A DNA stretch of 64,000 bases from Taklimakanibacter albus (GTDB lineage: Bacteria; Pseudomonadota; Alphaproteobacteria; Rhizobiales; Aestuariivirgaceae): contig NZ_JAENHL010000006.1 in the NCBI RefSeq assembly GCF_016595235.1, positions 992,001 to 1,056,000 on the forward strand. Direction: 5' to 3'. The notes under the pieces were generated by a model. The model was not told the DNA's origin and made no database searches. It worked only from the letters and a program-made list of their open reading frames with translations. Positions 16,361 through 50,767 of this stretch are shown in pieces. Every line of letters begins with the position of its first letter. The first letter of the stretch is position 1. Both the position numbers and the translations under genes were made by a program.

Positions 16361-16422
16361 AGCAAAGGTTACTGGCTGCCGATCACCAAAGGCTTATGAA
16401 TTTGACAGAAACTGTAGCGGCT

Positions 16423-18030: not shown

Positions 18031-18057
18031 GCGCCCCGTTAACTCACACGCGGATGC

Positions 18058-18124: not shown

Positions 18125-18166
18125 TCACATCATCCGCGGCGGATCAACCGGAAAAGGATATAAAGC

Positions 18167-18931: not shown

Positions 18932-18994
18932 TCACTGATCCAGGGAGTCCGCGCGAAAGCTTTGCGGACTCCCGCTTAATCCACGAGGATAATT

Positions 18995-19921: not shown

Positions 19922-19927
19922 TCAAGA

Positions 19928-20509: not shown

Positions 20510-20605
20510 TTGACCTCCGGTTCCGGAGTTAATACGAAATGCGTTAGCCTGCTTGAAAAATATGCTATCTCCCTCAAGTCTTTCCATTATTCCTATCGGG
20601 TGAAC

Positions 20606-21325: not shown

Positions 21326-21331
21326 ACCACC

Positions 21332-21898: not shown

Positions 21899-21939
21899 GC
21901 GGCAGGTCCGCCGGAATGCGTGGCCATGAGGGTCCGTTG

Positions 21940-22674: not shown

Positions 22675-22676
22675 CC

Positions 22677-23525
22677 ATGGCCGAGACGACCGGCGCGCCC
22701 CAGGGCGCCAATTGGCGCGATCTCGGCATCCGCACCTTGTCCTCGGCGATACTGATTCCCGCCGTCCTGGTCGATGTCTGGCTGGGGGATGCCTGGTTCC
22801 ATCTCCTGGTGGCGCTGCTCGGTGTCATGATGGCGCATGAATGGACCAACATCGTCCACGATCGCAGCTCCTCGCAATTCGCGCTGCATGCGGCGGCCGC
22901 TCTGTGCGGCGCCTTCCTGCCGCTGTCGCATGGCTGGCATATGGCGCTTGGTGTGATTGCGGTCATCTGGGTCTTGAGCCTTCTCCTGGCGCTCGCCCAG
23001 CACCGCCGCCTCAGCCTCTGGGTCGTCTCCGGTGTCGCCTATATCGGCCTGCCGGCGATGGCCTTCGTCATACTGAGGGGCGAGAACGAGGCGGGCATGC
23101 TCGCCATGATGTGGCTCTTCGCGGTGGTCTGGGCGGCTGATATCTGCGCCTATTTCGCCGGCCGTGTCATCGGCGGTCCGAAGCTCGCGCCGAGGATTTC
23201 GCCCAAGAAGACCTGGGCCGGGCTGTGGGGCGCCATCGCCGGCGCGGCTGCCGTGGGGGCCGCGGTCGCCTATGGCGCGGGCCTTGCCGATGTCATCCTC
23301 CTGGGCCTCCTGGGGGGCGTGCTCGCCGTCGTGGAGCAGATGGGCGATCTCTTCGAATCGGCGCTCAAGCGCCATTACGGGGTGAAGGATTCGGGTCGCC
23401 TCATTCCCGGCCATGGCGGCGTTCTCGACCGGGTGGACGGGCTCGTTGCCGCCTCGCTGGTGCTGGCCGCGGTCGTCATCGTTTCGGGTTATATCGGCGC
23501 CGGTAACGAACTTTTTGGCCGCTAA
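22677..23525 (+). CDS. cdsA: Phosphatidate cytidylyltransferase
   Basis: Inner-membrane enzyme making CDP-diacylglycerol from phosphatidic acid and CTP. About eight hydrophobic helices are followed by the family signature near the C-terminus (SALKRHYGVKDSG and then PGHGGVLDRVD). The ATG at 22677 lies two bases after the uppS stop and gives 282 residues; the longer open frame overlaps uppS and is rejected. In most alphaproteobacteria dxr comes next, but here a 251-base non-coding gap and then rseP follow. Confidence 0.96.
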   Translation: MAETTGAPQGANWRDLGIRTLSSAILIPAVLVDVWLGDAWFHLLVALLGVMMAHEWTNIVHDRSSSQFALHAAAALCGAFLPLSHGWHMALGVIAVIWVLSLLLALAQHRRLSLWVVSGVAYIGLPAMAFVILRGENEAGMLAMMWLFAVVWAADICAYFAGRVIGGPKLAPRISPKKTWAGLWGAIAGAAAVGAAVAYGAGLADVILLGLLGGVLAVVEQMGDLFESALKRHYGVKDSGRLIPGHGGVLDRVDGLVAASLVLAAVVIVSGYIGAGNELFGR

Positions 23526-35865: not shown

Positions 35866-35912
35866 ATGTCCGGGAAGCTGTCGGGATGCAAGACAGCCCC
35901 AAAATGGGACAT
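35866..35912 (+). promoter_or_regulatory. Candidate structured leader of ilvD
   Basis: A nested hairpin lies 35 bases before the ilvD start. ATGTCC (35866-35871) pairs with GGACAT (35907-35912), GGG (35872-35874) with CCC (35898-35900), and GCTGTC (35877-35882) with GACAGC (35892-35897), leaving a nine-base loop. The outer strand covers an upstream in-frame ATG. No branched-chain-rich leader peptide is seen, so classical attenuation is not supported. Confidence 0.35.
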
Positions 35913-35946
35913 GAGCCGGATTCAGGGGCGGCGACACGGACAGACT

Positions 35947-37671
35947 ATGGATGCAAAAACCATAACAAAAACAAGACTCCCCAGCCGCCATGTGACTGAA
36001 GGTCCGCAGCGGGCCCCACACCGGGCTTTCCTCTACGCCATGGGCCTGTCGCAGGCCCAGATCAATCAGCCTTTGGTCGGCGTAGCGTCCTGCTGGAACG
36101 AGGCCGCGCCCTGCAATATCTCGCTCATGCGCCAGGCCCAGGCGGTGAAGCGCGGGGTTGCCGCCGCCAACGGCACGCCACGCGAATTCTGCACCATCAC
36201 GGTCACCGACGGCATTGCCATGGGACACCAGGGCATGAAGGCCTCGCTCATGTCGCGCGAATGCATCGCCGATTCGGTCGAATTGACCATGCGCGGCCAT
36301 TGCTATGACGCGCTCGTCGGCGTCGCCGGCTGCGACAAGTCCTTGCCGGGCATAATGATGGCCATGGTCCGCCTCAACGTGCCCTCGGTTTTCATCTATG
36401 GCGGCTCGATCCTGCCCGGCACCTTCAAGGGTCGGCCGGTGACCATCCAGGACGTCTTCGAAGCGGTCGGCATGCATTCGGTCGGCCGGATGAGCGATGC
36501 CGACCTCGAGACGCTGGAGCAGGCCGCCTGTCCTTCGGCGGGCTCCTGCGGCGCCCAGTTCACCGCCAACACCATGGCGACGGTGGCCGAGGCGATTGGC
36601 CTGGCTTTGCCCTATTCCTGTGGCGCGCCCGCCCCCTACGAGATCCGCGACACCTTCTGCTTCGCCTCCGGTGAAAAGGTGATGGAGCTCGTCGCGCGCA
36701 ATATCCGCCCGCGCGATATCGTGACCCTGAAGGCGCTCGAAAACGCGGCGACCGTGGTGGCGGCCTCCGGCGGCTCGACCAATGCGGCGCTGCATCTGCC
36801 GGCCATCGCCCATGAATGCGGCATCAAGTTCGATCTCTTCGACGTCGCCGAGATCTTCAAACGCACGCCCTATATCGCCGACCTGAAGCCGGGCGGCAAA
36901 TATGTCGCCAAGGACATGTTCGAGGCGGGCGGCATTCCGCTCCTGATGAAAACGCTGCTCGACCATGGCTTCCTGCATGGCGACTGCCTGACGGTGACCG
37001 GCCGGACGGTGGCCGAGAACATGGCCAAGGTGAAATGGAATCCGGACCAGGATGTCGTGCGTCCGGCCAATAACCCGATCACCCGGACGGGCGGCGTCGT
37101 CGGGCTGAAAGGCAATCTCGCGCCGGACGGCGCCATCGTCAAAGTGGCCGGCATGAAGAATCTGAAATTCTCAGGCCCCGCTCGTTGCTTCGATACCGAG
37201 GAGGACTGCTTCGCGGCGGTGACCAACCGCCAGTACAAGGAAGGCGAGGTGCTGGTCATCCGCTATGAGGGCCCGCGCGGCGGCCCTGGTATGCGCGAGA
37301 TGCTGGCGACCACGGCGGCGATCTATGGCCAGGGCATGGGCGACAAGGTGGCGCTCATCACCGATGGCCGCTTTTCCGGCGCCACCCGCGGCTTCTGCGT
37401 CGGCCATGTCGGGCCTGAAGCCCAGCTCGGCGGTCCGATCGGCCTGATCAAGGACGGCGACATCATCACCATCGACGCCGAGACGGGGAGCCTCGATGTG
37501 AATGTCACAGTTGCGGAACTTTCTCGCCGTAAAAAGGACTGGAAGCCGCGCGAACATGGCTATGGAGCCGGCGCGCTATGGAAATATGCGCAGCAGGTTG
37601 GTCCCGCTGTGGGCGGTGCTGTGACCCATCCCGGAGGATTGCACGAAGGTGTTTGCTACGCCGATATATAA
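35947..37671 (+). CDS. ilvD: Dihydroxy-acid dehydratase
   Basis: Iron-sulphur enzyme for the third step of valine, leucine and isoleucine synthesis. Three cysteines expected to hold the cluster are visible: Cys49 in [12 protein letters not shown], Cys129 in GCDKSLPG and Cys201 in [16 protein letters not shown]. The segment [15 protein letters not shown] and the C-terminal [13 protein letters not shown] fit IlvD better than phosphogluconate dehydratase (Edd) or sugar-acid dehydratases. The start ATG at 35947 ([19 protein letters not shown]) matches usual IlvD N-termini and gives 574 residues; the upstream in-frame ATG at 35866 lies in a hairpin. Confidence 0.95.
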
Positions 37672-38569: not shown

Positions 38570-38673
38570 TCGGGCGTCCGCTCTCCCGAGCACAATCACC
38601 TGCGAAGTTGTTCAACCGCGGCGGCATCGCCGGCGGATGCGCGCGTTATCGCCGCCATAGATATCGCCATGGG

Positions 38674-38685
38674 AACAATGAATTT
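38674..38685 (+). promoter_or_regulatory. Shared 12-mer AACAATGAATTT, copy 1 (before Rieske ferredoxin)
   Basis: The 12-base sequence AACAATGAATTT lies 55 bases before the ferredoxin ATG and occurs again, identically, at 45610-45621 before the hydroxylase gene. Both copies have TATCG a short distance upstream. Identical 12-mers in the two longest spacers of one gene cluster suggest a shared regulator or promoter element. Confidence 0.35.
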
Positions 38686-38740: not shown

Positions 38741-39085
38741 ATGGGAGAGGTCGACGCGCAAGGGCAATCGCAAGTCTGGGTGGCCGCCATCCGTGCCGCC
38801 GACCTGGCGCCGAATGACGCGACCCGCATCCAGCACAACCAGTCCTGCATCGCGCTCTACAATCTCGATGGTCGCTTTTACGCGACGGCGGGCATCTGCA
38901 CCCACGCGCATGCGTTCCTGTCCGAAGGCTACATCAACGGCCAGACCATCGAATGCCCGCTGCACCAGGGCCTGTTCCACATTCCCACGGGCAAGCCGCT
39001 GTCGCCGCCCGTCACCGAAGCTTTGAAGACCTATCAGACCAAGATCGAGCAGGGGACCGTCTATGTCCTCGTCGATGGAGGATAA
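38741..39085 (+). CDS. Rieske-type [2Fe-2S] ferredoxin (MocE-like)
   Basis: Small soluble electron carrier for an oxygenase. The Rieske cluster motif is complete: Cys53-x-His55 in GICTHAHAFL and Cys72-x2-His75 in ECPLHQGLFH, with 16 residues between the pairs. The 114-residue length fits single-domain Rieske ferredoxins such as MocE and naphthalene dioxygenase ferredoxin. The start at 38741 follows GAGGG by a few bases; an earlier in-frame ATG (38669) would add a lysine/arginine-rich tail that looks non-native. It opens an eleven-gene same-strand cluster that includes a matching reductase and di-iron hydroxylase, with sugar transport genes between. Partner assignment is inferred from context. 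Confidence 0.9.
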   Translation: MGEVDAQGQSQVWVAAIRAADLAPNDATRIQHNQSCIALYNLDGRFYATAGICTHAHAFLSEGYINGQTIECPLHQGLFHIPTGKPLSPPVTEALKTYQTKIEQGTVYVLVDGG

Positions 39086-39145
39086 GCCGCCACGAAGCAA
39101 CCATCCGAGAGAAAGATCTCCGGATAACCCCATGGGAGGAAATCG

Positions 39146-40450
39146 ATGCCAGCCGTTTCACGTCGCCAGCTTTTGAAAAGCGCCGCGGGTCTAGCCTGCG
39201 CCGCCGCACTGCCGGGTCTCGCCAGCACACCTGCGAGCGCCGCGCCGGTGCACGATCTTCTCAATGCTCTGATCAAGAAATATTCCGATGCCGCCAAGGC
39301 CGCCATGGCCAATGCCGACATCAAGGCGCTGTTCGAGAAGGACGGTTTCCGCGACTATCTCGATGTCTACCCGGTCGGCGATCTCGCCGGCGGCTTCGTC
39401 TGGAAGCCGGGCATGGGCGCGAGCTTCACCGGCCCTTACAGCAAGCTTCAGATCAAAGCGCCGTTCACGGACTATCTGCCGATGAACGAGGGACCGGTGC
39501 TCGACAAGGCCAAGACCTATCGCATCGGCTTCGTCTTCCACGGCTTCAACCATCCCTGGCTGATCAGCCTCGCGGACACGGCGGCCTGGGAGGCGGCACG
39601 CCACCCCAATGTCCAGCTCGAAGTCATCGACGCGGAGTTCGACGACAACAAGATGGGGCAGGTGATCGATACCTGGATCGCCAAGAAGTTCGACGGCATC
39701 GTGCTGTGGCCCTCGCGCGAGGCGCCGATGGGACCGCCGGTCGACCGCGCCATCGCCGCCGGCATACCGGTGGTGAGCCTCGACCGCCGTACGTCCTCGG
39801 AAGTGATCAGTTCCGAAGTTCTCGGCAACTTCTACGCCAACGGCCTGCAGCAGGGACTCTATCTCCAGCACGCCGCGGCGGGAGCGGGCGCCATGATCTG
39901 CAATCGCAAGGATCTCGGCAGCACGGCGGACTCGATCCGCACCGGTTCCTATTTGGAAGTGATCGGCAACAGCCCCGACTATAAGGTCCTGGCGAACTAT
40001 CACACCAACAGCCAGCGCACCCTGGCCTTCAAGGCGACCGCCGATGCGCTGCAGGCCTTCAAGGACATCGCGATCATCTTCAATACCGGCGGCGAGGAGG
40101 CGATGGGCGCCCTCGATGCGGTGCGCGAGGCAGGACGGCTCAACAGCGCGCCCGGAGGCAAGAAGATCATCATCCTCGCCAATGACGACGCCCGCGAGGT
40201 GCTGAAGGAGATCCGCGCCGGCAATATGGACATGGTGGCGCCCTATACGCCGCTCATCGGCGACATCGGCATCCGCGCCGTCATCGCGCATATCGGCCAC
40301 AAGGCGGGACTGCTGCCCGAGGCGCCGCCCAAGCTCATCCTGACGCCCAATCTGCCGATGATCACGCGGGAGAAGATGACCATCGAGGGCATCGAGACAC
40401 TGACACCGGACGAATGGCCCTATGCCTATGGTCCGGAAGTGGCCAGCTGA
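39146..40450 (+). CDS. Tat-exported sugar ABC transporter solute-binding protein (RbsB/CUT2 family)
   Basis: Periplasmic receptor for a sugar-like ligand. The N-terminus has a twin-arginine motif (SRRQLLK) and a likely cleavage after ASA near residue 32. A region of about 90 residues (34-123) rich in aromatic residues comes before the conserved periplasmic-binding-protein type 1 fold, which starts at YRIGFVFHGFNHPWLISL. RbsB proteins normally start that fold right after the signal peptide, so the extension is unusual. The fold continues with DGIVLWPSREAP, AGIPVVSLDRR and a DAVREAGRL segment. A strong GGAGGAAATCG site precedes the ATG. The 434 residues compare with about 300 for RbsB. Ligand unknown; neighbours point to a polyol, sugar or cyclitol. 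Confidence 0.9.
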   Translation: MPAVSRRQLLKSAAGLACAAALPGLASTPASAAPVHDLLNALIKKYSDAAKAAMANADIKALFEKDGFRDYLDVYPVGDLAGGFVWKPGMGASFTGPYSKLQIKAPFTDYLPMNEGPVLDKAKTYRIGFVFHGFNHPWLISLADTAAWEAARHPNVQLEVIDAEFDDNKMGQVIDTWIAKKFDGIVLWPSREAPMGPPVDRAIAAGIPVVSLDRRTSSEVISSEVLGNFYANGLQQGLYLQHAAAGAGAMICNRKDLGSTADSIRTGSYLEVIGNSPDYKVLANYHTNSQRTLAFKATADALQAFKDIAIIFNTGGEEAMGALDAVREAGRLNSAPGGKKIIILANDDAREVLKEIRAGNMDMVAPYTPLIGDIGIRAVIAHIGHKAGLLPEAPPKLILTPNLPMITREKMTIEGIETLTPDEWPYAYGPEVAS

Positions 40451-40491
40451 CCGCACGCGACGGGAGCATCAGCCATGTCAGGGTCAGCAGC

Positions 40492-41484
40492 ATGAGCGCT
40501 GTCGACGACACCCATGCGGCGCGTTCCGCGCCTGCGATCAGGCACCCGGCTCCGTTCCGGGCGCAGATCGGCGGTTTGAGCCGCATTGCCATCCTTCTGC
40601 TGCTGGTTCTGACGGCGCAGCTCGTGACGCCGTCCTTCCTGGCGCCCGCCAACCTGCAGGTGATCCTGATGGCGGTCGCCGCCATCGGTGTCATGGCCAT
40701 CGGCATGACGCTGGTGGTGATCGCCGGCGAGATCGACCTGTCGATCGCCGGCGTCGCCATTCTCGCTTGTGTGTTGGGCGGTATCCTGATCCCGACGGGA
40801 TCGCCGGTGCTCGTCATCGGTGTGACGCTTCTCACCGGGCTCGTCCTGGGCCTGATCAACGGAATCCTGGTCGCCGGTTTGCGCATCCCCTCCCTGATCG
40901 CAACGCTCGGCATGCTCGGCATCGCCCGGGCGCTGGCCAATATCGCCTCTGGCGGCCAGGCGCTTTATCCCGAAAGCATCGGACCTTATGTCTGGCTCGG
41001 CCGCGGCACTCTGCTCGGGCTGCCGGTTCCGGTGCTCATTCTTCTCGTCCTGACGGTTCTCGCCATCGCGTTGACGCGCTTCTCGATCTTCGGGCAAGCG
41101 CTCTACGCCACCGGCGGCAATGTCAAGGCGGCGCGCTTGTCGGGCATCAATGTGGCGGCCGTCCGGATTGCGGTGTTCATGCTATGCGGCTTCTGCGCGG
41201 CGCTCGCCGGCATGCTCGACAGCGCCAGGCTCTCTTATATCAACCCGTCGGGCTTCGAGGGGATCGAGCTCAGCGTTCTGGCGGTGACGGTGCTGGGCGG
41301 CGCTGCCCTTTCCGGTGGCAAAGGCACCATCACCGGAACCCTGGTGGCGGCGCTCATCATCGGCGTCGTCAACAATCTGCTCAACCAGCTGGGCGTCAGC
41401 ATCTATCTCCAGCAGGTGGCGATCGCCGCCGTTATTCTGGCCGTCGTGCTGCCGGATGCGCTCAAGCGGGGGACCGGCAAATGA
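40492..41484 (+). CDS. Sugar ABC transporter permease 1 (RbsC family)
   Basis: Inner-membrane permease of the CUT2 sugar import family, about 330 residues with eight to ten hydrophobic helices. Family landmarks are visible: GMTLVVIAGEIDLSIAG, the GLRIPSLIATLGMLGIARALA segment, and the C-terminal ALSGGKGTITGTLVAALIIG. The start at 40492 gives a normal short cytoplasmic N-terminus. Its stop overlaps the start of a second permease as ATGA, so the membrane part is probably a heterodimer, as in the AI-2 LsrC/LsrD transporter. Confidence 0.92.
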   Translation: MSAVDDTHAARSAPAIRHPAPFRAQIGGLSRIAILLLLVLTAQLVTPSFLAPANLQVILMAVAAIGVMAIGMTLVVIAGEIDLSIAGVAILACVLGGILIPTGSPVLVIGVTLLTGLVLGLINGILVAGLRIPSLIATLGMLGIARALANIASGGQALYPESIGPYVWLGRGTLLGLPVPVLILLVLTVLAIALTRFSIFGQALYATGGNVKAARLSGINVAAVRIAVFMLCGFCAALAGMLDSARLSYINPSGFEGIELSVLAVTVLGGAALSGGKGTITGTLVAALIIGVVNNLLNQLGVSIYLQQVAIAAVILAVVLPDALKRGTGK

Positions 41485-42506
41485 GCGATGCTACTCTCAA
41501 GAGTTCATCCGCAAGCTTTCCTTCGCTGGTGACGTTGCTGCGCGCCGAGCCGCTGCTGTGGCTCATCGCGGCGATCATCGTCACCGGCGCCGTGACGTCG
41601 GAATATTATCTGACCGGCCAGAATATCGAAAATCTCCTGCGCAGTGTGTCGGTCTTCGGCCTGCTGGCGCTTGGCATGACGGTGGTCATGCTGACCGGCC
41701 GTATCGACCTGTCGGTCGCCGCCACGATGATCTTCTCGATCGTGGTGGGGGTGAAGGTCATGGTGCTGCTGGGCGACGGCCTCGGCCTGCGCTGGCTGGT
41801 GAAAGGCAATACTTACGCTGGGCCGAGCCTGCCGTTCCTCGCCATCGCGATCGTCACCGGCTGCGCCGTCGGTGCCGTCAACGGCATCGGCATCGCCTAT
41901 TTCCGCATCGCGCCCTTCATCATGACGCTCGTGTCGCTGACCGCGCTGCGCGGTTTCAACTATGTGCTGACCGACGGCCACCCTTACTATCTGCGCTCGC
42001 CCGTTTTCGCCTTCATCGGCGATCAGGTGGTCCTCGGCATCCCCTTCAGCACATTGGTCTTCCTGGCGGTGCTCGTCGCCTTGATCCTGTTCGTGAACGG
42101 CACGGTTGCCGGGAGCCGCTTCTATGCGATCGGCGGCAGCGAGCGGGCGGCGCTTTATGCCGGCATCAGGACCGAGCGTTTCGTCGTATTGGCTTACATG
42201 ATCAGCGGCTTCTGCGCCGCGCTCGCCGGCATCCTGTTCACCGCGCGGCTCAAATCGGTCGATGCGCCGTTGGCTTCGGGCTACGAACTGACCGCCATCG
42301 CCATCGCGGTGATCGGCGGCACGGCGCTGTCGGGCGGTGTCGGCTCGCCATGGCGCACATTGCTGGGCAGTCTCGTCTTCGCCTCGGGCCTCAATCTTTT
42401 GGCCATCTGGGGCATCGGCACCTGGTATCAGAATCTCATTGTCGGCACAGTGCTCATCGCCGCGGTCGCGCTTTCCCGCATCGGCCGTCCGCGTGCATCC
42501 AGCTAG
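41481..42506 (+). CDS. Sugar ABC transporter permease 2 (RbsC family)
   Basis: Second CUT2 permease of 341 residues, clearly different from the first in sequence but with the same landmarks: GMTVVMLTGRIDLSVAATM, FRIAPFIMTLVSLTALRGFNYVLTDG and the C-terminal TALSGGVGSPWRTLLGSLVF. The extra loop around residues 85-115 (GDGLGLRWLVKGNTYAGP) is longer than in permease 1. The start overlaps the previous stop by four bases; the kinase gene begins ten bases after its own stop. Confidence 0.92.
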   Translation: MSDATLKSSSASFPSLVTLLRAEPLLWLIAAIIVTGAVTSEYYLTGQNIENLLRSVSVFGLLALGMTVVMLTGRIDLSVAATMIFSIVVGVKVMVLLGDGLGLRWLVKGNTYAGPSLPFLAIAIVTGCAVGAVNGIGIAYFRIAPFIMTLVSLTALRGFNYVLTDGHPYYLRSPVFAFIGDQVVLGIPFSTLVFLAVLVALILFVNGTVAGSRFYAIGGSERAALYAGIRTERFVVLAYMISGFCAALAGILFTARLKSVDAPLASGYELTAIAIAVIGGTALSGGVGSPWRTLLGSLVFASGLNLLAIWGIGTWYQNLIVGTVLIAAVALSRIGRPRASS

Positions 42507-42516
42507 GGAGTTCAAC

Positions 42517-44067
42517 TTGCGCGGTCATCTCACCCTCGGAATAGACATCGGCACCACCAATGTGAAGGCCGCCATCCTTGATACGAATACCGGCAAGCTT
42601 GTCGCGTTCGGGTCGAAAGAGCATCCGCTTTTCCATCCCTTTCCGGGCTGGGCCGAGCAGGAGCCCGGTAATTATTGGTCGGCCGTCGTGTCGGCCATTC
42701 GCCAATGCCTCGATCAGGGCCGCTTCGCCGATGACATCGCCGCCGTGGCCTTGTCGGGCCTGGTCGGCGTCACCCTGCCGGTCAACGATCAGGGCCGGCC
42801 GCTGCGCCCGGCGATGATCTGGATGGATGCGCGCTCGGAGCCCGAATGCGAGGACATCAGGACGCGGGTCGGCGAGGCGGCGATCAACCGCAACAACGGC
42901 AACCGCATCGCGCCGTGGTTCATCGATCCCAAGGCGCTGTGGATCAAGCGCCATGAGCCCCATATCTTCTCGGCCATCCACAAATTTCTGTCGCCGTCGG
43001 GCTATTGCACCTTCCGCATGTGCGGCAACTTTACGATGAATACCGGTGATGCCGGGCTCGCTTATGCCTATGAGTATCAGAAGGAGAGCTGGAACGAGGG
43101 CATTGCCAATGCGATCGGTATTCCGCTCGAGATGTTCCCGCGGCTCTACCGCTCGCATGAACTCGTCGGCGAGGTGACGCGCCAGGCGGCGGAGGAAACC
43201 GGCCTGCGTGCAGGCACCCTGGTCGCGGCCGGTGGCACCGATATCAGCTCGGCGGCGCTCGGCGTCGGCGTCACCAAGGCCGGCCAGGCCTATTATTCGA
43301 TGGGCACCGGCTCCAATCTGGGCATCATGATCCCGACCGAGCAGCGGGTCGAGGAATACCGTATTCTCAAATGGCCGCATGTGCTGCCGGGTCTCACCAT
43401 GTTCGACGGTCCGATGGCCTTCACCGGCGCGTCGCTGAAATGGTTCCGCGATCAGTTCGGCGACAGCGAATGGCGCCTCGCCGAAAGGATGGGGCAGAAT
43501 GTCTTCGACCTGTTCACGGCGCAGGCGATGCAGGTTCCGCCGTGCTCGGATGGGCTGCTCTATCTGCCTTATCTCGGCAATACGCTGTCGCCCAACTGGC
43601 ACAGCAACGCCACCGGCGCCTTCTTCGGCATCCGCCCGACGACGACGCGCTCGCATTTCATCCGGGCGCTGATCGAGGGCGTGGCGTTCGATCTCTATTC
43701 CAACATCCGTATCGCCCGCGAAGCCGGCGTCGCCGTCGATGGCCTCATTCTCAATGGCGGGCCGACCAAAAGCCGCTTCTGGAATCAGATCACCGCCAAT
43801 GTCGTGAATGTGCCGCTTCAGGTGCCCGATATCGGCGAGGCGGCGCCGATCGGCGATGCCATTCTCGCCGGCACCGCGGCGGGCATCTACAGCTCGCCCG
43901 TCGAGCCGCTCGACCGGATCGTCAGGATCAAGGAGACCATCGATCCTGATCCCAAGCTGCATGAGCGGTACCGGGCCTTCTTCGACATCTGGTCGTCCTT
44001 CTACCAGCATGTGCGCGGCGACATGGATGCCCATCGCGCACTCGTCGACCGCTACCATTCCGGCTGA
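42517..44067 (+). CDS. FGGY family carbohydrate kinase (xylulokinase-like)
   Basis: Cytoplasmic kinase that would phosphorylate the imported sugar or its processed product. The N-terminal phosphate-binding motif GIDIGTTNVKAAIL, the WAEQEPGNYW segment typical of xylulokinase-like members, DARSEPE, the GGTDISSAALG motif and the C-terminal GLILNGGPTKSRFWNQITAN loop are all present. I choose the TTG at 42517 as start because GGGAG sits six bases upstream and it gives the family's usual N-terminus (516 residues); ATG codons further upstream lie inside the permease gene. Its presence argues that the transported compound is a free hydroxylated carbon skeleton. Substrate cannot be set among xylulose, ribulose, erythritol and cyclitol-like possibilities. 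Confidence 0.9.
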   Translation: MRGHLTLGIDIGTTNVKAAILDTNTGKLVAFGSKEHPLFHPFPGWAEQEPGNYWSAVVSAIRQCLDQGRFADDIAAVALSGLVGVTLPVNDQGRPLRPAMIWMDARSEPECEDIRTRVGEAAINRNNGNRIAPWFIDPKALWIKRHEPHIFSAIHKFLSPSGYCTFRMCGNFTMNTGDAGLAYAYEYQKESWNEGIANAIGIPLEMFPRLYRSHELVGEVTRQAAEETGLRAGTLVAAGGTDISSAALGVGVTKAGQAYYSMGTGSNLGIMIPTEQRVEEYRILKWPHVLPGLTMFDGPMAFTGASLKWFRDQFGDSEWRLAERMGQNVFDLFTAQAMQVPPCSDGLLYLPYLGNTLSPNWHSNATGAFFGIRPTTTRSHFIRALIEGVAFDLYSNIRIAREAGVAVDGLILNGGPTKSRFWNQITANVVNVPLQVPDIGEAAPIGDAILAGTAAGIYSSPVEPLDRIVRIKETIDPDPKLHERYRAFFDIWSSFYQHVRGDMDAHRALVDRYHSG

Positions 44068-44079
44068 GGGGGAAGGGTG

Positions 44080-45573
44080 ATGAGCGAGCATGCGCCGCTT
44101 CTCGAGGTGCGGGCGATCCGCAAGGCCTTTCCGGGCGTCGTGGCGCTCGCCGATGTGAGCTTCGATATTTTGCCGGGAGAGGTCCATGCGCTGGTCGGCG
44201 AGAACGGCGCCGGCAAATCAACGCTCTTGTCGATCATCAATGGGCTCCAGCTGCCCGACAGCGGCGAGATCCGCCGGGATGGCCAGGCCGTCATGCTGCG
44301 CAATCCGTCCGTCGCCCGGGCGCATCGGATCGCGCTGGTCCATCAGGAGCTGGTCCTGTGCCCCAATCTGACGGTGGCCGAGAACATCCTGCTCGGGCAG
44401 GAGCCGAAGGGCCGGTTTGGCCGCACCGACCGCAAGGCCATGTATCAGGAGGCGCGCCGGATTCTGGGCGCCATCCATGTCGATCTCGACCCGGCCCGTC
44501 CCACCGGCGAGCTCAGCCTCAACGAGCAGCAGATCGTGGAGATATGCCGCGCTCTGGTCAGCGATCCGAAAGTGCTGATCTTCGACGAGCCGACGGCCTC
44601 GCTCAATGACGACCAGGTTCAGCATCTCCTGGCCATCATCCGCAACCTCAAGGCCAAGGGTCTCGGCATCGTCTATGTATCGCATCGCCTGGCGGAGGTC
44701 TTCGCGCTCGCTGATCGGATCACCGTTCTGCGTGATGGCCGCGCCGTCGCGACATTGCCGGCGGCGGAGTCCAGCGAGGCGGTGGTGATCCGGCATATGG
44801 TCGGCCGCGATCCGGCGCCGAACCGGATCGAGCGGGGCACCAGCGGCACGGCCGAGGTGGCGCTCGCCGTGCGCTCGCTCGGTGCCGGCAAATTGTTCGA
44901 TGATGTCTCCTTCGAGATCCGCAAGGGCGAGATCCTGGGAATCGCAGGGCTGCTCGGCTGCCAGCGCGAAGCTGTGATGCGCGCTCTGTTCGGCGCCTTG
45001 CCGGTCGACCGGGGTGAGATCCGCGTGGGCGATAGACCATGCCGGGCGCGGTCGCCGCGCCAGGCGATCGTCCAGGGCTTCGGCTTCCTGCCGGCCGACC
45101 GCAAGGGCGAGGGGCTCGTGCTGCCGATGAGTGTCGGCGACAATATCGCGCTGACCATGCTCTGGCGTTTTTCCGCGCTGGGTTTCCTGCGCCGGCGAAA
45201 GAAGGACGGCCTCGCCTGGGAGATGATCCGCATGCTGTCCACCAAGGTGGCGAGCCTGTCGCAAGCGGCGCGCGAGCTTTCCGGCGGCAACCAGCAGAAG
45301 CTGGTCATTGCCAAGTGGATCGCCCGCGGCGGCGAGGTGTTCCTGGTCGAGGATCCGACGCGCGGCGTCGATGTCGGCGCCAAGCCGCAGATCTGGCGGG
45401 CCATCGATGAGCTGACCCGGCAGGGCAAGGCGGTGCTTTTGATCACCAGTGAGCTGCAGGAGCTGATGGATATCAGCGACCGCATCATCGTCATGAGCCG
45501 CGGGCGCGTCACCGGGCATTTTGAGCGGCCGGAATTCTCCGTCGAGGGCATCGCGCGCTGCGCCGTGATGTGA
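44080..45573 (+). CDS. Sugar ABC transporter double ATPase (RbsA/CUT2 family)
   Basis: Energising subunit for the two permeases. Domain 1 has an intact Walker A GENGAGKST (about 40-48), the RbsA-style degenerate signature LSLNEQQIVEI and Walker B LIFDEPTASL. Domain 2 has the expected weak Walker A (GLLGCQREAVMRALFG) with an intact signature LSGGNQQKLVIAKW and LVEDPTRGVD. One strong and one degenerate nucleotide site is normal for this family. The GTG at 44077 precedes the ATG at 44080; GAGGGGGAAGGG upstream favours the ATG. The length of 497 residues is standard. The ORF is followed by 107 bases before the hydroxylase gene. Confidence 0.94.
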   Translation: MSEHAPLLEVRAIRKAFPGVVALADVSFDILPGEVHALVGENGAGKSTLLSIINGLQLPDSGEIRRDGQAVMLRNPSVARAHRIALVHQELVLCPNLTVAENILLGQEPKGRFGRTDRKAMYQEARRILGAIHVDLDPARPTGELSLNEQQIVEICRALVSDPKVLIFDEPTASLNDDQVQHLLAIIRNLKAKGLGIVYVSHRLAEVFALADRITVLRDGRAVATLPAAESSEAVVIRHMVGRDPAPNRIERGTSGTAEVALAVRSLGAGKLFDDVSFEIRKGEILGIAGLLGCQREAVMRALFGALPVDRGEIRVGDRPCRARSPRQAIVQGFGFLPADRKGEGLVLPMSVGDNIALTMLWRFSALGFLRRRKKDGLAWEMIRMLSTKVASLSQAARELSGGNQQKLVIAKWIARGGEVFLVEDPTRGVDVGAKPQIWRAIDELTRQGKAVLLITSELQELMDISDRIIVMSRGRVTGHFERPEFSVEGIARCAVM

Positions 45574-45602
45574 CGGACCGCACGTCGCCGAAACCGATGC
45601 CC

Positions 45603-45634
45603 GTATCGAAACAATGAATTTCCAATCCCGATAC
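45603..45634. promoter_or_regulatory. Inverted repeat GTATCG-N20-CGATAC enclosing shared 12-mer copy 2
   Basis: In the 107-base spacer between the RbsA-type gene and the hydroxylase gene, GTATCG (45603-45608) and CGATAC (45629-45634) are perfect inverted arms. Between them lies AACAATGAATTT (45610-45621), identical to the copy at 38674-38685 before the ferredoxin gene. The spacer may hold an internal promoter and an operator, perhaps for the LysR protein encoded at the cluster end. Confidence 0.38.
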
Positions 45635-45680
45635 CCCGCATTTAAGGCAGGTCGGGAAGATCGAAACGAGGAATGTGACC

Positions 45681-46673
45681 ATGCAAGGGAATGATTCAGC
45701 AAGCTTCGCCGGTATCGGTGGGATCGGTAGCCGCATCTGGCCTCTGACCGGCCCTGAAATCATATCGCGCGATGCCTTGAAGACCTTGCGCGTGCGCGCC
45801 AATGCGCCGGGCCTCATCCGGCTCGCCGTCCACATATCCGCCCTGGCGCTAGGCGTCGGCGCCGTCTATCTGAGCAGCGGCACCTGGTGGCTCATGGTGC
45901 CGGCCATGCTTCTCTATGGCATCGTCATCGTACTACTCTTCGCGCCGCTGCATGAATGTTCGCATGGCACCGCCTTCCAGTCGCGCTGGCTCAATCACGC
46001 TTTGGGTTTCATCGTCGCCTTCCTCACCATGCGGCCGTTCCTCTATTTCAAATACCGGCATGCGGCGCATCACACCTACACCCAGCATGAGGATCACGAT
46101 CCCGACATCGTGCCGTTCCCGACATCGTTCGGCGATTATCTCCGCCAGATCGCCGGCTTTTCCTTCTGGCCGAAACTGGTGGGAACGCTGTGGCGCGGCT
46201 GTCTCGGTCGCTTCTCGGAGGAGGAACGGGAGTTTCTGCCCGAATCCGTCTTTGGCGATGTGAGCCGCGAGATCCGCATCATGTGCGCCCTCTATCTGGC
46301 GATCGTCGCGGTTTCGATCTGGACCGGCAGCACGATCGCGCTGATCTACTGGTTCCTGCCGCGCATGTTGGGCGAGCCGGTGCTGCGCGCCATCCGCATG
46401 GCCGAGCATACCGGCGCCGAGGAGAGCCCGAACCTTCTCGCCAATACGCGCACCACTCTGGCCAATCCGGTCCTGCGCCTGCTGTACTGGAACATGCCCT
46501 ATCACGCCGAGCATCATCTGGCCTCCTCGGTGCCGTTCCACGCGCTCGGCAAGCTCCATGAACATGTCTCGCCGCATCTCGAATGTGTGAGCCGGAGCTA
46601 TTTCCAGGTTCATCGCGACATCCTGCGCGAAGTGCTGAAGGGCAAAAAGCGCGAAATGGCGGCGGGCGAATAG
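45681..46673 (+). CDS. Membrane di-iron fatty-acid-desaturase-family hydroxylase (MocD-like)
   Basis: Predicted oxygenase component. The 330-residue protein has membrane helices and the three histidine boxes of the desaturase/alkane hydroxylase fold: HECSH at 91-95, HAAHH at 127-131 and HAEHH at 275-279, plus His243 in AEHTG. Substrates of this fold include fatty acids, alkanes, xylene, carotenoids and, in the rhizopine MocD system, a methylated cyclitol. There is no fused electron-transfer domain, so it needs the ferredoxin (38741-39085) and reductase (46681-47904). The ATG at 45681 has GAGGA eight bases upstream, better than the GTG at 45675. Lipid desaturation is an alternative, but the sugar-transport context argues against it. 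Confidence 0.88.
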   Translation: MQGNDSASFAGIGGIGSRIWPLTGPEIISRDALKTLRVRANAPGLIRLAVHISALALGVGAVYLSSGTWWLMVPAMLLYGIVIVLLFAPLHECSHGTAFQSRWLNHALGFIVAFLTMRPFLYFKYRHAAHHTYTQHEDHDPDIVPFPTSFGDYLRQIAGFSFWPKLVGTLWRGCLGRFSEEEREFLPESVFGDVSREIRIMCALYLAIVAVSIWTGSTIALIYWFLPRMLGEPVLRAIRMAEHTGAEESPNLLANTRTTLANPVLRLLYWNMPYHAEHHLASSVPFHALGKLHEHVSPHLECVSRSYFQVHRDILREVLKGKKREMAAGE

Positions 46674-46680
46674 GGGCGAT

Positions 46681-47904
46681 ATGACCAAGGATGTCGTCAT
46701 CGTCGGCGGCGGGCATGCGGGCGGGCGCGTGGCGGAGCGCCTGCGCCATGGCGGCTTCAAGGAGCCGATCCATGTCGTTGGACGCGAGATGGAGTTTCCG
46801 TATGAACGGCCGCCGCTCTCCAAAGCCTGCCTGACCGGACCTGAGCCGGTGGCCAACGCTTATCTCATCCCACCGTCGCGCTGGCAGGAGATCGGCGTCA
46901 CCTTTCATCTCGGCAAAGAGGTGACTGAAATCGACCGCGCCGGGCGCCGCATCAGAATGAATGATGGCCAGGTTCTGCCTTACCGCCATCTGGTCCTCGC
47001 CACCGGACTGACGCCCAGGAGCCTGCCGGCACTCACCGAAATTACTCGCCATGTCTCCTATCTGCGCAGCTTCGAAGACGCCCTGCGGCTGCGCACGCGT
47101 CTGTGTCCGGGGACGCGGCTGCTCATCGTCGGCGCCGGGTTGATCGGGCTCGAAGTGGCGGCGAGCGCGATTGGCCGGGGTGTCGAGGTCACCATCGTCG
47201 AGGCCGGCGAGCGTCCGCTGATGCGTCTCCTGCCGGAGCGCCTGGCGCTGTGGCTGAGTTCGACGCATCGCGCGGCGGGGGTCAGGATTCTCTGTGGGCG
47301 CCGGATCGTGCGCGCGGAGTCCGTTGGTGAGACAGTGGCCGTTGCGTTGGATGACGGCACCGACATTTCCGCTGATGAAATTCTGGTGGCGATCGGCGCT
47401 GCGCCCAATGACGGCCTCGCTCGGGCCGCGGGGCTCGACGTCGATGACGGCATTGTAGTGAATGCGCGCGGCGAGACCAGCGATCCGGATATCAGCGCCG
47501 TCGGCGATGTGGCGCGTCATGACAATGTGAGATTCGGCACGCGCCAGCGCCTCGAATCCTGGCGCAACGCCGAGGATCTGGCCGCCATTGTCGCGGCCAA
47601 TCTCTGTGGCGATCGTCAGTCTTATGGTGAAGTGCCATGGTTCTGGACCGATCAATATGATTGGAACATCCAGATCGCCGGCACGCCTTCGCCGGGACTT
47701 GACGTGCTGGAGCGTGGCGCCATCGGTGTGCGCGGTTATCTCGCTTATTATCTCGAGAGCGGCGCTCTGCGCGGTGCGGTGGGAATCGGCTGCGGCCGCG
47801 ACATCCGGATGGCGCGCGAGATCATGCGATCGGGAGCCACTGTCGATCAGGCCGACCTTCTGGCCAAGGGCTTCCGCACCGGTGCCGCGCTCGTCGAGGT
47901 ATAG
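46681..47904 (+). CDS. NAD(P)H-ferredoxin reductase, FAD-dependent (MocF / rubredoxin reductase-like)
   Basis: Flavoprotein passing electrons from NAD(P)H to the Rieske ferredoxin. It has an N-terminal FAD-binding VIVGGGHAGGRVAE, the YERPPLSKACL segment typical of oxygenase-coupled reductases, a central NAD-binding LLIVGAGLIGLEVAASA (about 147-163) and the C-terminal SAVGDVA motif, in the order of BphA4/AlkT/ThcD proteins. The length of 407 residues is normal. It starts seven bases after the hydroxylase gene, which fits with the two being an electron-transfer pair. The acceptor is inferred to be the ferredoxin encoded eight kilobases upstream in the same cluster. Confidence 0.93.
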   Translation: MTKDVVIVGGGHAGGRVAERLRHGGFKEPIHVVGREMEFPYERPPLSKACLTGPEPVANAYLIPPSRWQEIGVTFHLGKEVTEIDRAGRRIRMNDGQVLPYRHLVLATGLTPRSLPALTEITRHVSYLRSFEDALRLRTRLCPGTRLLIVGAGLIGLEVAASAIGRGVEVTIVEAGERPLMRLLPERLALWLSSTHRAAGVRILCGRRIVRAESVGETVAVALDDGTDISADEILVAIGAAPNDGLARAAGLDVDDGIVVNARGETSDPDISAVGDVARHDNVRFGTRQRLESWRNAEDLAAIVAANLCGDRQSYGEVPWFWTDQYDWNIQIAGTPSPGLDVLERGAIGVRGYLAYYLESGALRGAVGIGCGRDIRMAREIMRSGATVDQADLLAKGFRTGAALVEV

Positions 47905-47907
47905 ATC

Positions 47908-49017
47908 ATGATCGAATGCGACGCCGCTATTTGTGTGAGACCGGGGGAAGACCTCGTCATCGACCGGATCAGGGTCGAGCCGCCGCGGGAAGGCGAGGTG
48001 CTGGTCGAGATCGCCGCGAGTGGACTGTGCCACACGGATCTGACGGCGCTCGACGGCAGCAACGCGACCTGCGTCTATCCGCTCATTCCAGGGCATGAGG
48101 GGGCCGGCAGTGTGATCGAGATCGGCAAGGGCGTGACGGGACTGCGTCCCGGCGATCACGTGATTCCGCTCTATGGGCCCGAATGCGGCACTTGCCGCAT
48201 GTGCGCGAGCGGACGGACCAATCTCTGCTGGTCGATCAAGGCGACCCGTGACAAGGGCGTCATGCCGGACGGCTCGGCGCGCTTTCACCGGCAGAGCGAG
48301 ACGGTCCATCACTTCATGGGCACCTCGACTTTCTCGCGTTATACGGTTCTGCCCGAGATCGCCCTGGCGAAGATCCGCGCCGACGCGCCACTCGACCGCG
48401 CCTGCCTGCTCGGCTGTGGCGTCACCACCGGCATCGGGGCGGCGCTCGACGATGTCAGGGCCGGCGACCGTGTCGCGATCTTCGGCCTGGGCGGCATCGG
48501 CATCAATGTGATCCAAGGCGCCCGTCTTGCCGGTGCCGCAGAGATCATCGGAATCGACATCAATGCCAGCCGCATGGATCTCGGTCGCTCCCTGGGCATG
48601 ACGCAATTCATTGACGCCAGCATGGAGGGGGCTCGCACCGTGGAAGCCATCCGCGACCTCACGGAAGGTGGCGCCGATGTCGTCTTCGAATGCACCGGCC
48701 TTATTCCGGTAATGCGCCAGGCCTTCGACTCGACGGCGCCGGCCTGGGGCAGCTGCGTGCTTCTCGGCGTGGAGCCGAAAGGCGCCGAGCTCGCCGTGCC
48801 GCCTGTCGGCCTGCGTTATGGCCGGAAGCTCAAAGGCAGTTATTTCGGCGGTGTTAAAGGCCGCAGCGGGCTGGCGCGTTTCGTCGATCTGTACATGGAA
48901 GGCAAGATCGTCATCGATCCGCTGATCAGCCATCGGCTGAGCCTGGCGGAGGTCAATCAGGGCTTCGCGATGATGAAAAGCGGTGCGGCTCTGCGCAGCG
49001 TAATCGTCTTCGAATGA
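47908..49017 (+). CDS. Zinc-dependent alcohol dehydrogenase, class III-like
   Basis: NAD-dependent medium-chain dehydrogenase of 369 residues. Catalytic zinc ligands are Cys41 (GLCHTD), His63 (PGHEGAG) and Cys170 (LLGCGVTTG); structural zinc ligands are Cys93, Cys96, Cys99 and Cys107. The GLGGIG nucleotide motif and the segments PDGSARF and MGTSTFSRYTV closely follow glutathione-dependent formaldehyde dehydrogenase. The residue four past the last structural cysteine is Lys111, where human ADH5 has its glutathione-binding Arg115, and the nearby acidic DPE is replaced by NAT, so glutathione dependence is doubtful. It lies three bases after the reductase and may oxidise formaldehyde or an alcohol from the oxygenase reaction. 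Confidence 0.9.
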   Translation: MIECDAAICVRPGEDLVIDRIRVEPPREGEVLVEIAASGLCHTDLTALDGSNATCVYPLIPGHEGAGSVIEIGKGVTGLRPGDHVIPLYGPECGTCRMCASGRTNLCWSIKATRDKGVMPDGSARFHRQSETVHHFMGTSTFSRYTVLPEIALAKIRADAPLDRACLLGCGVTTGIGAALDDVRAGDRVAIFGLGGIGINVIQGARLAGAAEIIGIDINASRMDLGRSLGMTQFIDASMEGARTVEAIRDLTEGGADVVFECTGLIPVMRQAFDSTAPAWGSCVLLGVEPKGAELAVPPVGLRYGRKLKGSYFGGVKGRSGLARFVDLYMEGKIVIDPLISHRLSLAEVNQGFAMMKSGAALRSVIVFE

Positions 49018-49832
49018 CGGGCGCTGCCGAGGAAGGCTATGTCTTCCGTCATCGCTATCCGGAGCGCGAGGCCATCTATCGCTCTTTCGCCGACAGAAGT
49101 GCCGAAACCCGCGCCGCTCTGCTGTGCCGGAATGATGTCGCTTACGGCACGCATCCGCGCCAGCGTTTCGATCTCTTTCCGGGAACGCCTCACGGTCCCG
49201 TCCTGATCTTCATCCATGGCGGCTATTGGCGCAGCCAGGCGAAGGAGTCTTTCAGCTTCGTGGCGAGACCCTTCGTTGAGCAGGGATGCTCGGTCGCGAT
49301 TATCGGCTATCCGTTGCTTCCGGATATCTCCTTTTCCGCCCTGTGCGAAAGCGTTCGGACGGGGACCGCGGCGGCTTTGGCGGCGATCGAGGAAATGGGC
49401 CTCTATCCACGCTTCTGGGCGCTGTGCGGCCATTCGGCGGGTGGTCACCTGGCAGCGCTCCTCGCGGCCACGGATTGGTCACCGCACGGGCCGCCGCGCG
49501 GTTGTCTGGCGATCAGCGGCATCTTCGATCTGGAACCGCTGCTGACGACCTCACTGGGCGGGATGCTGGGCCTGGACAGTGCAGCCGCCGCGGCGTTCAG
49601 CCCGCTGCGGATCGATCATTGCCGGGGCCGGCTGCTGGCAGTGGTCGGTTCCGCCGAAACGGAGGCGTTCCAGGCGCAATCGCGGGCCTATGCCGCGCAT
49701 TGGTCGGCGCAGGGTGGCGAGGCCCGGCTCATTCAGTTGAAGCATCGCCATCACTACGATATCCTTTGCGACTTCATGCAGAGCCGGAGCGAGCTTGTGG
49801 ATCACTTCCAGACCTTCATCGCGCCAGATTAG
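49014..49832 (+). CDS. Alpha/beta hydrolase, kynurenine-formamidase / BD-FAE-like
   Basis: Cytoplasmic serine hydrolase of 272 residues. The oxyanion-hole motif FIHGGYW (His68) and nucleophile Ser141 in CGHSAGGH match the arylformamidase-like branch, and a histidine-rich HRHHYDIL segment near the C-terminus supplies the catalytic His. Known members cleave N-formyl or ester bonds. Its ATG overlaps the dehydrogenase stop by four bases (ATGA), so it is part of the same pathway. It could hydrolyse a formyl group, lactone or ester made after oxidation; this is inference. No kynurenine pathway gene is nearby. Confidence 0.87.
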   Translation: MTGAAEEGYVFRHRYPEREAIYRSFADRSAETRAALLCRNDVAYGTHPRQRFDLFPGTPHGPVLIFIHGGYWRSQAKESFSFVARPFVEQGCSVAIIGYPLLPDISFSALCESVRTGTAAALAAIEEMGLYPRFWALCGHSAGGHLAALLAATDWSPHGPPRGCLAISGIFDLEPLLTTSLGGMLGLDSAAAAAFSPLRIDHCRGRLLAVVGSAETEAFQAQSRAYAAHWSAQGGEARLIQLKHRHHYDILCDFMQSRSELVDHFQTFIAPD

Positions 49833-49843
49833 CCGACAGCGCG

Positions 49844-50767
49844 ATGGTCGGCCGCAAGCTTAATTTTGTGAATTTCAGCCAATTACGCTCCTTTTACGCG
49901 GTCGGACGTGAGCTGAGCTTCACCCGCGCCGCCGAATTCCTCAATATCGGCCAGCCGACGCTGACGACGCAGGTCCGCGCGCTGGAGGAGACTTACGACG
50001 TCAAGCTCTTCCTGCGCTCGCCGCGCGGCCTCAAGCTCACCGAAACGGGTGAGGCGCTGCTCGTCATCGCGCGGCAGATCTTTTCGCTGGAAGAGCAGGC
50101 GGTCGAACTGCTGAGCGCCAGTGACGGGCAGGTGAGCGGCAAGCTCAGGGTCGGCACCGTCGGGCCGTTCTTCGTCATGAAGCTCCTGGCCAACTTCCAT
50201 GAGAACCATCCGCTCGCGCAGGTCTTCGTCGAAAGCGGCAATTCCGATCTCATCTATCGAAGGCTTCTCGACTACGAGGTCGATGTCGCCGTGCTCGGCT
50301 TCAACTATGACGATCCGCGTCTCGAGATGATCTCGCTCGGGCGGCATGAGGTCATCGTCTTCGTTCATGAAAGCCATCCGTGGAGCGGCCGGGATCAGCT
50401 GGAGCTGGCTGAGCTCGACGGGCAGCGTTTGATCCTGCGCGAGCCGGGTTCGATGACGCGGCGCGTCTTTGAAGAGGCGCTGGCCCGGCAGCGGGTACGC
50501 CCGAAGGTCGTCATGGAAATCTCCCGCGACGCGGTGCGCGAGGCAGTCGCCGCGGGTCTCGGCATCGGCATCGTGTCGGAGACTGAATTCGTTCCCGACA
50601 GCCGGCTCCAGCCGCTGCGCATCGTCGATCACAAAGCGCATACCGAGGCCTTCGCCATGTGCCTCAGGGCACGCCGGCATCTGCGCCAGATCGATGCCTT
50701 CATGAAGCTTGCCGAAGAGACCCGCACCGAGGCGTCACCGCCTCCGCTTGCCGAGACCGAGCGCTGA
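49844..50767 (+). CDS. LysR family transcriptional regulator
   Basis: DNA-binding regulator of 307 residues with an N-terminal winged helix (SQLRSFYAVGRELSFTRAAEFLNIGQPTLTTQVRALE) and a C-terminal effector-binding domain (SGKLRVGTVGPFFV onward). It lies 11 bases after the hydrolase on the same strand, at the end of the cluster, so autoregulation is plausible. It is the only regulator in the cluster and is a candidate binder for the AACAATGAATTT sites. The ATG at 49844 is used; a GTG at 49868 (NFSQLRSF) is an equally plausible start with closer fit to usual LysR N-termini. Its effector is probably the substrate or a product of the oxygenase pathway. Confidence 0.92.
   Translation: MVGRKLNFVNFSQLRSFYAVGRELSFTRAAEFLNIGQPTLTTQVRALEETYDVKLFLRSPRGLKLTETGEALLVIARQIFSLEEQAVELLSASDGQVSGKLRVGTVGPFFVMKLLANFHENHPLAQVFVESGNSDLIYRRLLDYEVDVAVLGFNYDDPRLEMISLGRHEVIVFVHESHPWSGRDQLELAELDGQRLILREPGSMTRRVFEEALARQRVRPKVVMEISRDAVREAVAAGLGIGIVSETEFVPDSRLQPLRIVDHKAHTEAFAMCLRARRHLRQIDAFMKLAEETRTEASPPPLAETER

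Follow-up and report, generated by a model that had tools for sequence, protein, structure and literature searches.

Plants and algae contain methylated sugars and cyclitols, and to our knowledge few enzymes are known that strip the methyl group from such compounds. One of the closest described systems is MocDEF, for which Bahar 1998 is cited. It comprises a membrane oxygenase of the FA_desaturase type, a Rieske ferredoxin and a flavin adenine dinucleotide (FAD) reductase, is associated with CUT2-type transport and is proposed to remove the methyl group of rhizopine (3-O-methyl-scyllo-inosamine). MocDEF is described together with a rhizopine-inducible promoter (PMC10107442), mocDEF genes of unclear function lie next to a xylose isomerase gene in Pseudomonas syringae (PMC5132102), and the rhizopine and hydroxymethyltransferase passages of a paper on the MocR regulon make no mention of a PanB-like gene (PMC5320631). 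Another close system is the P450 system of marine Flavobacteriia for 6-O-methyl-D-galactose, in which genes for a zinc alcohol dehydrogenase (ADH) and an esterase are found near the demethylase (PMC10033563). Here we describe a locus that resembles both systems and differs from each. It lies in a 64-kb window, the whole stretch of DNA analyzed, from the 7.17-Mb genome of Taklimakanibacter albus (G000:C6:992001-1056000), and consists of eleven plus-strand genes at positions 38741..50767 of the window.

Like MocDEF, the locus encodes an FA_desaturase-type oxygenase, a Rieske ferredoxin, an FAD reductase and a CUT2 importer. In contrast to MocDEF, it also encodes an FGGY kinase, an ADH, an alpha/beta hydrolase and a LysR regulator, and lacks a PanB-like gene. 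The absence of mocA and mocC noted in the first-pass annotation was borne out: neither these genes nor MocR were found in the cluster itself or in a scan of eight flanking proteins, and the regulator is of the LysR type instead. The P450 system likewise has an oxygenase with ferredoxin and reductase and a zinc ADH and esterase nearby, but there a P450 replaces the FA_desaturase-type oxygenase, and no CUT2 importer or sugar kinase is seen in the part of its description available to us. The operon described here probably imports a methylated sugar-like compound, demethylates it oxidatively and phosphorylates the remaining skeleton.

The eleven genes form a real, conserved operon and are not adjacent by chance. 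Their positions and shared strand were confirmed from the sequence and the open reading frame coordinates, and the Pfam domains of all eleven proteins, each over its own cut-off, agree with the families first assigned to them. A genome scan seeded with the oxygenase gathered 19 loci, and two further ones, from Sinorhizobium mexicanum and S. terangae, came from a search of plasmids. In the synteny survey that the first-pass annotation had proposed, all eleven genes were present in the same order in each of the eight untruncated loci with an oxygenase at least 61% identical (L009, L010, L012, L013, L014, L028, L029, L033), although some member proteins are only 38% identical. The nearest named locus, that of ‘Rhizobiales bacterium Y(2018)’, has a 96% identical oxygenase, and the full-order loci include that of Xenophilus, a betaproteobacterium. 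A ninth close locus (L011) is a 4-kb contig with its four genes in canonical order. The genes are closely spaced, with successive gaps of 60, 41, -4, 10, 12, 107, 7, 3, -4 and 11 bases as calculated from coordinates in which several start codons are inferred. Nine of the ten gaps are thus 60 bases or shorter; the tenth, of 107 bases, precedes the oxygenase gene. A further 171 bases are free upstream of the ferredoxin gene.

More distant relatives retain parts of the set. In Nioella (L015) and Pelagibacteraceae (SAR11; L020-L022, L025, L027), the importer, kinase, oxygenase, ferredoxin, reductase and LysR-like genes are kept in divergent blocks. A 13-kb contig from Microbacteriaceae (L019) shows every member except LysR. 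Three Streptomyces loci (L016, L018, L023) have only the oxygenase, kinase, ferredoxin and LysR genes, to which the Pseudonocardiaceae locus (L017) adds ADH and reductase genes. In the two Streptomyces loci whose neighborhoods were scanned (L018:77-6372 and L023:7709-14155), the reduced cassette is located near an anthranilate synthase gene, and L023 also contains a phosphoribosyl-AMP cyclohydrolase gene. Kinase and oxygenase occur together in 19 loci from Alphaproteobacteria, Betaproteobacteria and Actinomycetota. It had been considered that homologous clusters might always lack the oxygenase; searches seeded with the kinase or the binding protein refute this, as they also reached loci that carry it.

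The eleven-gene set is an accessory unit. Matches to the oxygenase at E 1e-60 were present in 6 of 397 genomes in an order-level sample and exceeded 47% identity only in the source genome and one other (G336). The kinase clade is similarly rare: it was found in one of 385 genomes of the class sample (the source genome), three of 398 of the phylum sample and two of five from the same genus, the source genome included. The phylum-level kinase matches beyond the source genome are those of G336 and G1030, and both loci carry the oxygenase. Among the plasmid matches listed, those above 60% identity belong to the same two Sinorhizobium records for kinase and binding protein alike. The first-pass annotation knew of no description of this gene combination. 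None was found among the matches listed from the open-licence literature (subscription papers not covered), nor was a PanB-like enzyme in demethylation; the combination itself recurs in other genomes.

The presumed methyl hydroxylase is the FA_desaturase-type membrane oxygenase (45681..46673; PF00487, E 1e-38). It is encoded in the cluster together with the Rieske [2Fe-2S] ferredoxin (38741..39085; PF00355, E 1.4e-17) and the FAD ferredoxin reductase (46681..47904; Pyr_redox_2 PF07992, Reductase_C PF14759). Its three histidine boxes, HExxH (91-95), HxxHH (127-131) and HxEHH (275-279), have named residues that are invariant in all 24 aligned rows and would hold a putative diiron centre. The system was initially described as MocDEF-like, a description that holds for its architecture and not for its ancestry. 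Its identity to MocD-type oxygenases is approximately 32-35%. A tree of 48 rows places it in a clade of ten (support 99/99). MocD-type proteins from two loci of rhizobia (L031, where iolE and MocA-family genes are adjacent, and L061, annotated MocD-like) fall in a separate 11-row clade (99/98), joined by a second set of SAR11 oxygenases. The oxygenase is therefore MocD-like in architecture but not a MocD. Likewise, the ferredoxin scores 84.6 bits, below the MocE cut-off of 136.15. The best NCBIfam match of the oxygenase is the L-arginine hydroxylase GntB, at 55 bits far below the cut-off of 380. Two presumed lipid desaturases in the tree (Priestia, Eleftheria) are both on very long branches, and the tree therefore does not settle its own deeper root. 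Relatives of the oxygenase also occur in other surroundings. In Cupriavidus (L059:5885-11532), one lies in a further ADH/hydrolase neighborhood, beside genes for an iron-containing ADH and an alpha/beta hydrolase; an FAD oxidoreductase is encoded there too, as is rubredoxin, a different electron carrier. Two SAR11 loci have four (L021:261-20686) and three (L025:512-14514) FA_desaturase-type oxygenases, with several PanB-like genes, around the kinase cassette; each is presumably a dense island of putative demethylases.

The zinc ADH (47908..49017; ADH_N/ADH_zinc_N) is derived from class III, as first noted, but it is a diverged copy with a rewritten glutathione site. Class III ADHs are its nearest family and its nearest solved proteins, and its score to TIGR02818 is 436 bits, short of the cut-off of 544. 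We take Asp55, Glu57, Gln111, Arg114 and Lys283 of human class III ADH to be contacts to glutathione or substrate, with Thr46 as a sixth. In the ADHs of the cluster, Asp55 is replaced by Asn, Glu57 by Thr, Ser or Lys, and Gln111 by Trp in all 11 loci. Arg114 is replaced by Lys in 10 of 11, Arg being kept in L019, and Lys283 by Pro, Ala or Val in all ten readable loci; Thr46 is kept throughout (11/11). Nine of the ten full-length cluster ADHs have all five changes and that of L019 has four. Housekeeping class III copies (one from the source genome, two from Nioella and one each from SAR11 and Xenophilus) have Asp, Glu and Arg in 5/5 and Gln and Lys in 4/5; four of these proteins retain all five contacts and one retains three. 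The copy in the source genome is a separate gene (G000:C8:1120594-1121694) that scores 615 bits to TIGR02818 and has an intact site, so that this genome encodes a normal-looking glutathione enzyme besides the cluster ADH. Given the rewritten site, ordinary glutathione-dependent formaldehyde oxidation by the cluster ADH is unlikely; the simplest reading is a thiol-independent substrate.

The ADH gene is followed by that of an alpha/beta hydrolase with an HGGYW motif (49014..49832; Abhydrolase_3 PF07859), presumed to act on formyl esters or formamides. Its nearest solved protein is 9n8r (Lipase 1, E 1e-33), and it also matches the kynurenine formamidase 4e11 (E 7e-12). S-formylglutathione hydrolase belongs, we assume, to the esterase D-type family. 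No esterase D family was among the profile matches of the hydrolase at E 0.001, which comprise Abhydrolase_3, BD-FAE, HaHSL (below cut-off) and other esterases.

This pair of enzymes is exchanged for a PanB-like gene (PF02548) in other loci. Across the 19 loci with kinase and oxygenase, the ADH gene is present in ten; six of the nine others have a PanB-like gene, as do rhizopine-type loci, and three (Streptomyces) have neither. The two occur together in none of the 19, within the DNA examined per locus. A BLAST-similar hydrolase gene is found beside the ADH gene in nine of the ten ADH loci, and another alpha/beta hydrolase gene in L017. In the PanB-type genomes of Nioella and two SAR11 members, the best match to the cluster ADH is approximately 50% identical or absent at E 1e-60. 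The swap of the ADH/hydrolase pair for a PanB-like gene is the best evidence that a one-carbon group is removed. The five PanB-like proteins scanned from kinase or Moc-type loci score 68-109 bits against a panB cut-off of 207.55; such scores are so far under the cut-off that they are not ordinary PanB.

PanB-like genes also accompany other oxygenases. In Rhizobium lentis and R. etli IE4803, one lies directly 3′ of the mocF-type gene and is annotated as a 3-methyl-2-oxobutanoate or ketopantoate hydroxymethyltransferase gene; perhaps it encodes a one-carbon enzyme of rhizopine catabolism. The runs of mocDEF-type genes followed by a PanB-like gene span L031:9905-13478 and L061:6899-10401. At least five plasmid records among the matches listed have both an oxygenase match and a PanB-like match (≥57% identity), and the two genes are approximately 2 kb apart in all five, one of which is L031. 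PanB-like neighborhoods were also read in five of the six ADH-type genomes that carry such a gene at another position. In three of these (L089, L091, L092), the gene lies beside another MocD-like oxygenase. In a fourth (L090:4537-6311), it immediately follows a gene of the FA_hydroxylase family (PF04116). In the source genome itself (L088:42-7125; G000:C8, approximately 16041-23124), it is part of a run with genes for a PhyH oxygenase, a CUT2 transporter (permease, binding protein and ATPase), a ribokinase-like kinase (score 299.3, cut-off 299.65) and D-ribose pyranase (over its own cut-off), which looks like a cassette for methylated ribose. The presence of PanB-like genes beside oxygenases of three families is in keeping with a general role in handling the carbon that methyl oxidation sets free. 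PanB itself has known folate chemistry and, by analogy with it and from these neighborhoods, a one-carbon function may be assigned to the PanB-like proteins.

The kinase (42517..44067; FGGY_N/C, PF00370/PF02782; start inferred from relatives) belongs to a separate, dedicated FGGY clade without the xylulokinase motif. It is 59-99% identical across 18 loci; beyond the two Sinorhizobium matches, identity is at most 35.5% among the best 60 of 1117 plasmid records. Like xylulokinases and autoinducer-2 kinases, it has the FGGY domains and fold (mean predicted local distance difference test score of 75). Its nearest solved proteins are 5ya0 and 2itm, the latter (Escherichia coli xylulokinase) being the top Foldseek match. 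Asp242 of its GGTD motif, presumably the catalytic Asp of FGGY kinases, is invariant in a 19-row alignment. In contrast to these enzymes, SGLVGV stands in all 19 rows in place of QMHG, which we take to be the xylulokinase motif and which is present in 2itm. The kinase scores 333 bits against the XylB family TIGR01312 (cut-off 380) and is below the cut-offs of all 12 NCBIfam families matched.

The importer has the composition of CUT2 (RbsABC-like) systems. It comprises a periplasmic binding protein (39146..40450; Peripla_BP_4 PF13407, E 5e-36), two permeases (40492..41484 and 41481..42506; BPD_transp_2 PF02653, E 1e-34 and 3e-37) and a double-domain ATPase (44080..45573; ABC_tran PF00005 in two stretches). 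It differs from them in an extra N-terminal segment of the binding protein, approximately residues 35-118 (39248-39499, about 84 residues), which is conserved in a 15-row alignment and lies outside most structure matches; CUT2 binding-protein matches span residues 119-430. The binding protein scores 51.5 bits to the rhizopine solute-binding protein model, under its cut-off of 420, and beyond the two Sinorhizobium matches its identity is at most about 30% among the best 60 of 582 plasmid records. Neither an isomerase nor another dehydrogenase is part of the set, so the skeleton, once freed, is probably directly usable by the FGGY kinase, for example as a ketose or alditol.

The last gene of the cluster encodes the LysR regulator (49844..50767; PF03466, PF00126; start inferred). 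Alignment of the DNA upstream of the ferredoxin gene in nine canonical loci revealed a single conserved block, CATnnnnAnAATGAA, followed by TTTG in eight of the nine. In the window, it contains an imperfect inverted repeat, CATGG-GAA-CAATG (38668..38680, plus strand). The repeat pattern, which was set after the alignment was viewed, matches once in the entire 64-kb window and once per locus in the eight other canonical loci, several of the nine being closely related; it was absent from all ten rearranged loci scanned. Its first base is 73-93 bases before the ferredoxin start in all nine. Six copies are perfectly inverted, with one base pair that covaries between the arms (CATTG..CAATG or CATTC..GAATG); in the window, L009 and L010, the left arm is imperfect. 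Since the set includes a LysR gene, a LysR-type operator is the natural reading of this repeat, which we presume to control the operon.

Flanking genes include those of a dihydroxy-acid/6-phosphogluconate dehydratase-type protein and of Sel1, Exo_endo_phos, PAN and aldo/keto reductase proteins. None of seven flanking window proteins compared with other loci recurs beside the cluster except in the genome of L009, the nearest relative, so the cluster boundaries are those first assigned. The dehydratase-type gene (35866-37671, same strand, upstream) adjoins the cluster only in the window and L009.

On the basis of these features, a pathway can be proposed, which we hold to be rather more likely than not. 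The dedicated CUT2 importer would take up a methylated sugar, ketose or polyol. Electrons from reduced nicotinamide adenine dinucleotide would pass through the FAD reductase and Rieske ferredoxin to the membrane diiron oxygenase, which would convert R-X-CH3 to R-X-CH2OH by hydroxylating the methyl group. Through the ADH and alpha/beta hydrolase, and without glutathione, the one-carbon unit would leave as formate; a PanB-like folate enzyme would replace these two in other lineages. The dedicated FGGY kinase would phosphorylate the freed skeleton, and the LysR protein would control the operon from a single operator 5′ of the ferredoxin gene. The first-pass annotation had proposed import, oxidative demethylation and phosphorylation; this outline is kept, now with conservation across phyla and an exchangeable one-carbon module, and the MocD identity and an ordinary class III role are set aside. 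For the one-carbon step, the ADH may oxidize the hydroxymethyl product itself, with the hydrolase stripping the resulting formyl group. We advance in a tentative manner, as a somewhat doubtful possibility, the fuller proposal that demethylation is formaldehyde-free: R-X-CH2OH would be kept, converted to R-X-CHO by the ADH and cleaved to formate by the hydrolase. Under this proposal, PanB-like proteins would be an unrecognized family moving the hydroxymethyl group to folate, and the pathway would be common to rhizobia, SAR11 and actinomycetes.

A tangible possibility, short of an even chance, is that free formaldehyde is released and that the ADH and hydrolase detoxify it with another thiol or none, an account that overlaps the proposed pathway and differs in the one-carbon step only. 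It is weakened by the intact glutathione-type enzyme already encoded at C8 of the source genome, and by the 66% identity of the cluster ADH in Pseudonocardiaceae, a group that we take to use mycothiol rather than glutathione. It is favored by the spontaneous breakdown of hydroxymethyl ethers. It is also favored by the P450 demethylation of 6-O-methyl-galactose, which yields free formaldehyde (PMC10033563). The same study reports that knockout of the flavobacterial ADH causes a dramatic growth defect on the methyl sugar, and that the enzyme has no activity on formaldehyde with glutathione, mycothiol or bacillithiol (PMC10033563). It further states that aromatic compounds are the preferred substrates of this ADH, for which the authors rule out a part in the reaction after demethylation (PMC10033563); the exclusion and the aromatic preference do not favor a formyl-oxidation reading for the Flavobacteriia system.

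Several observations weigh against the proposed sugar demethylation pathway. The three Streptomyces loci have no importer, reductase, ADH or PanB-like genes, and genome-wide searches of two of these genomes gave no binding protein and no ADH match at E 1e-60. Because of these reduced loci, the common core comprises only the oxygenase, kinase, ferredoxin and LysR (LysR not being seen in the 13-kb L019). The SAR11 loci are near-duplicates, so the counts do not represent independent events. PanB-like genes occur elsewhere in six of nine ADH-type genomes searched, and the exchange is therefore per locus and not per genome. In addition, relatives of the oxygenase are found with a ferredoxin in nitrogen contexts: inside sarcosine oxidase/betaine (quaternary amine) clusters of Ruegeria (L030:2558-12894 and L032), and directly after a 5-guanidino-2-oxopentanoate decarboxylase gene in Rhodobacteraceae M382 (L060:6307-9273). 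The methyl group could therefore be an N-methyl group, or the enzyme may catalyze something other than demethylation.

The first of these alternatives would be N-demethylation of an N-methylated amino sugar or polyol, in which the oxygenase forms a carbinolamine, the ADH an N-formyl compound and the formamidase-like hydrolase formate. The nitrogen contexts of the oxygenase relatives in Ruegeria and the guanidino-acid cluster, the hydrolase match to kynurenine formamidase and the distant GntB match of the oxygenase all speak for it. However, the eleven genes include no aminotransferase, deaminase or other nitrogen gene, the nearest solved relative of the hydrolase is a lipase, and a neutral polyhydroxy compound fits the CUT2 transporter and FGGY kinase; we therefore regard it as unlikely. 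It is more improbable still that a C-methyl or ring carbon is hydroxylated without demethylation, with the ADH oxidizing the alcohol or lactol and the hydrolase opening a lactone before or after phosphorylation. An ADH without a glutathione site and a hydrolase could work in series in this way, but their replacement by a PanB-like hydroxymethyltransferase, which is also encoded beside genes of the mocDEF type and in the vicinity of two other oxygenase families, points to a one-carbon product. That a transporter operon adjoins an unrelated system for lipid desaturation by chance, as the Pfam name FA_desaturase and the 107-base gap might suggest, is barely credible and was rejected on account of the order conserved in 8/8 relatives, kinase and oxygenase also remaining paired in 11 rearranged or reduced loci.

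Two features of the proposed sugar demethylation pathway are unexpected and can be tested: the hydrolase is paired with a class III-derived ADH that has been rewritten, and elsewhere a PanB-like enzyme stands in for both. After the P450 clusters, this is the second instance in which an ADH/hydrolase pair adjoins a presumed sugar demethylase, here one of another oxygenase family, and the open question of the 2023 flavobacterial study thereby becomes directly testable. If the formaldehyde-free route is true, it might account for the ADH and esterase that are so puzzling in the P450 methyl-galactose clusters. The PanB-like exchange predicts a new one-carbon enzyme function, also beside the long-known mocDEF genes. 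If true, a conserved pathway shared by organisms as distant as soil rhizobia and SAR11 would supply a step that has been missing from carbon cycling.

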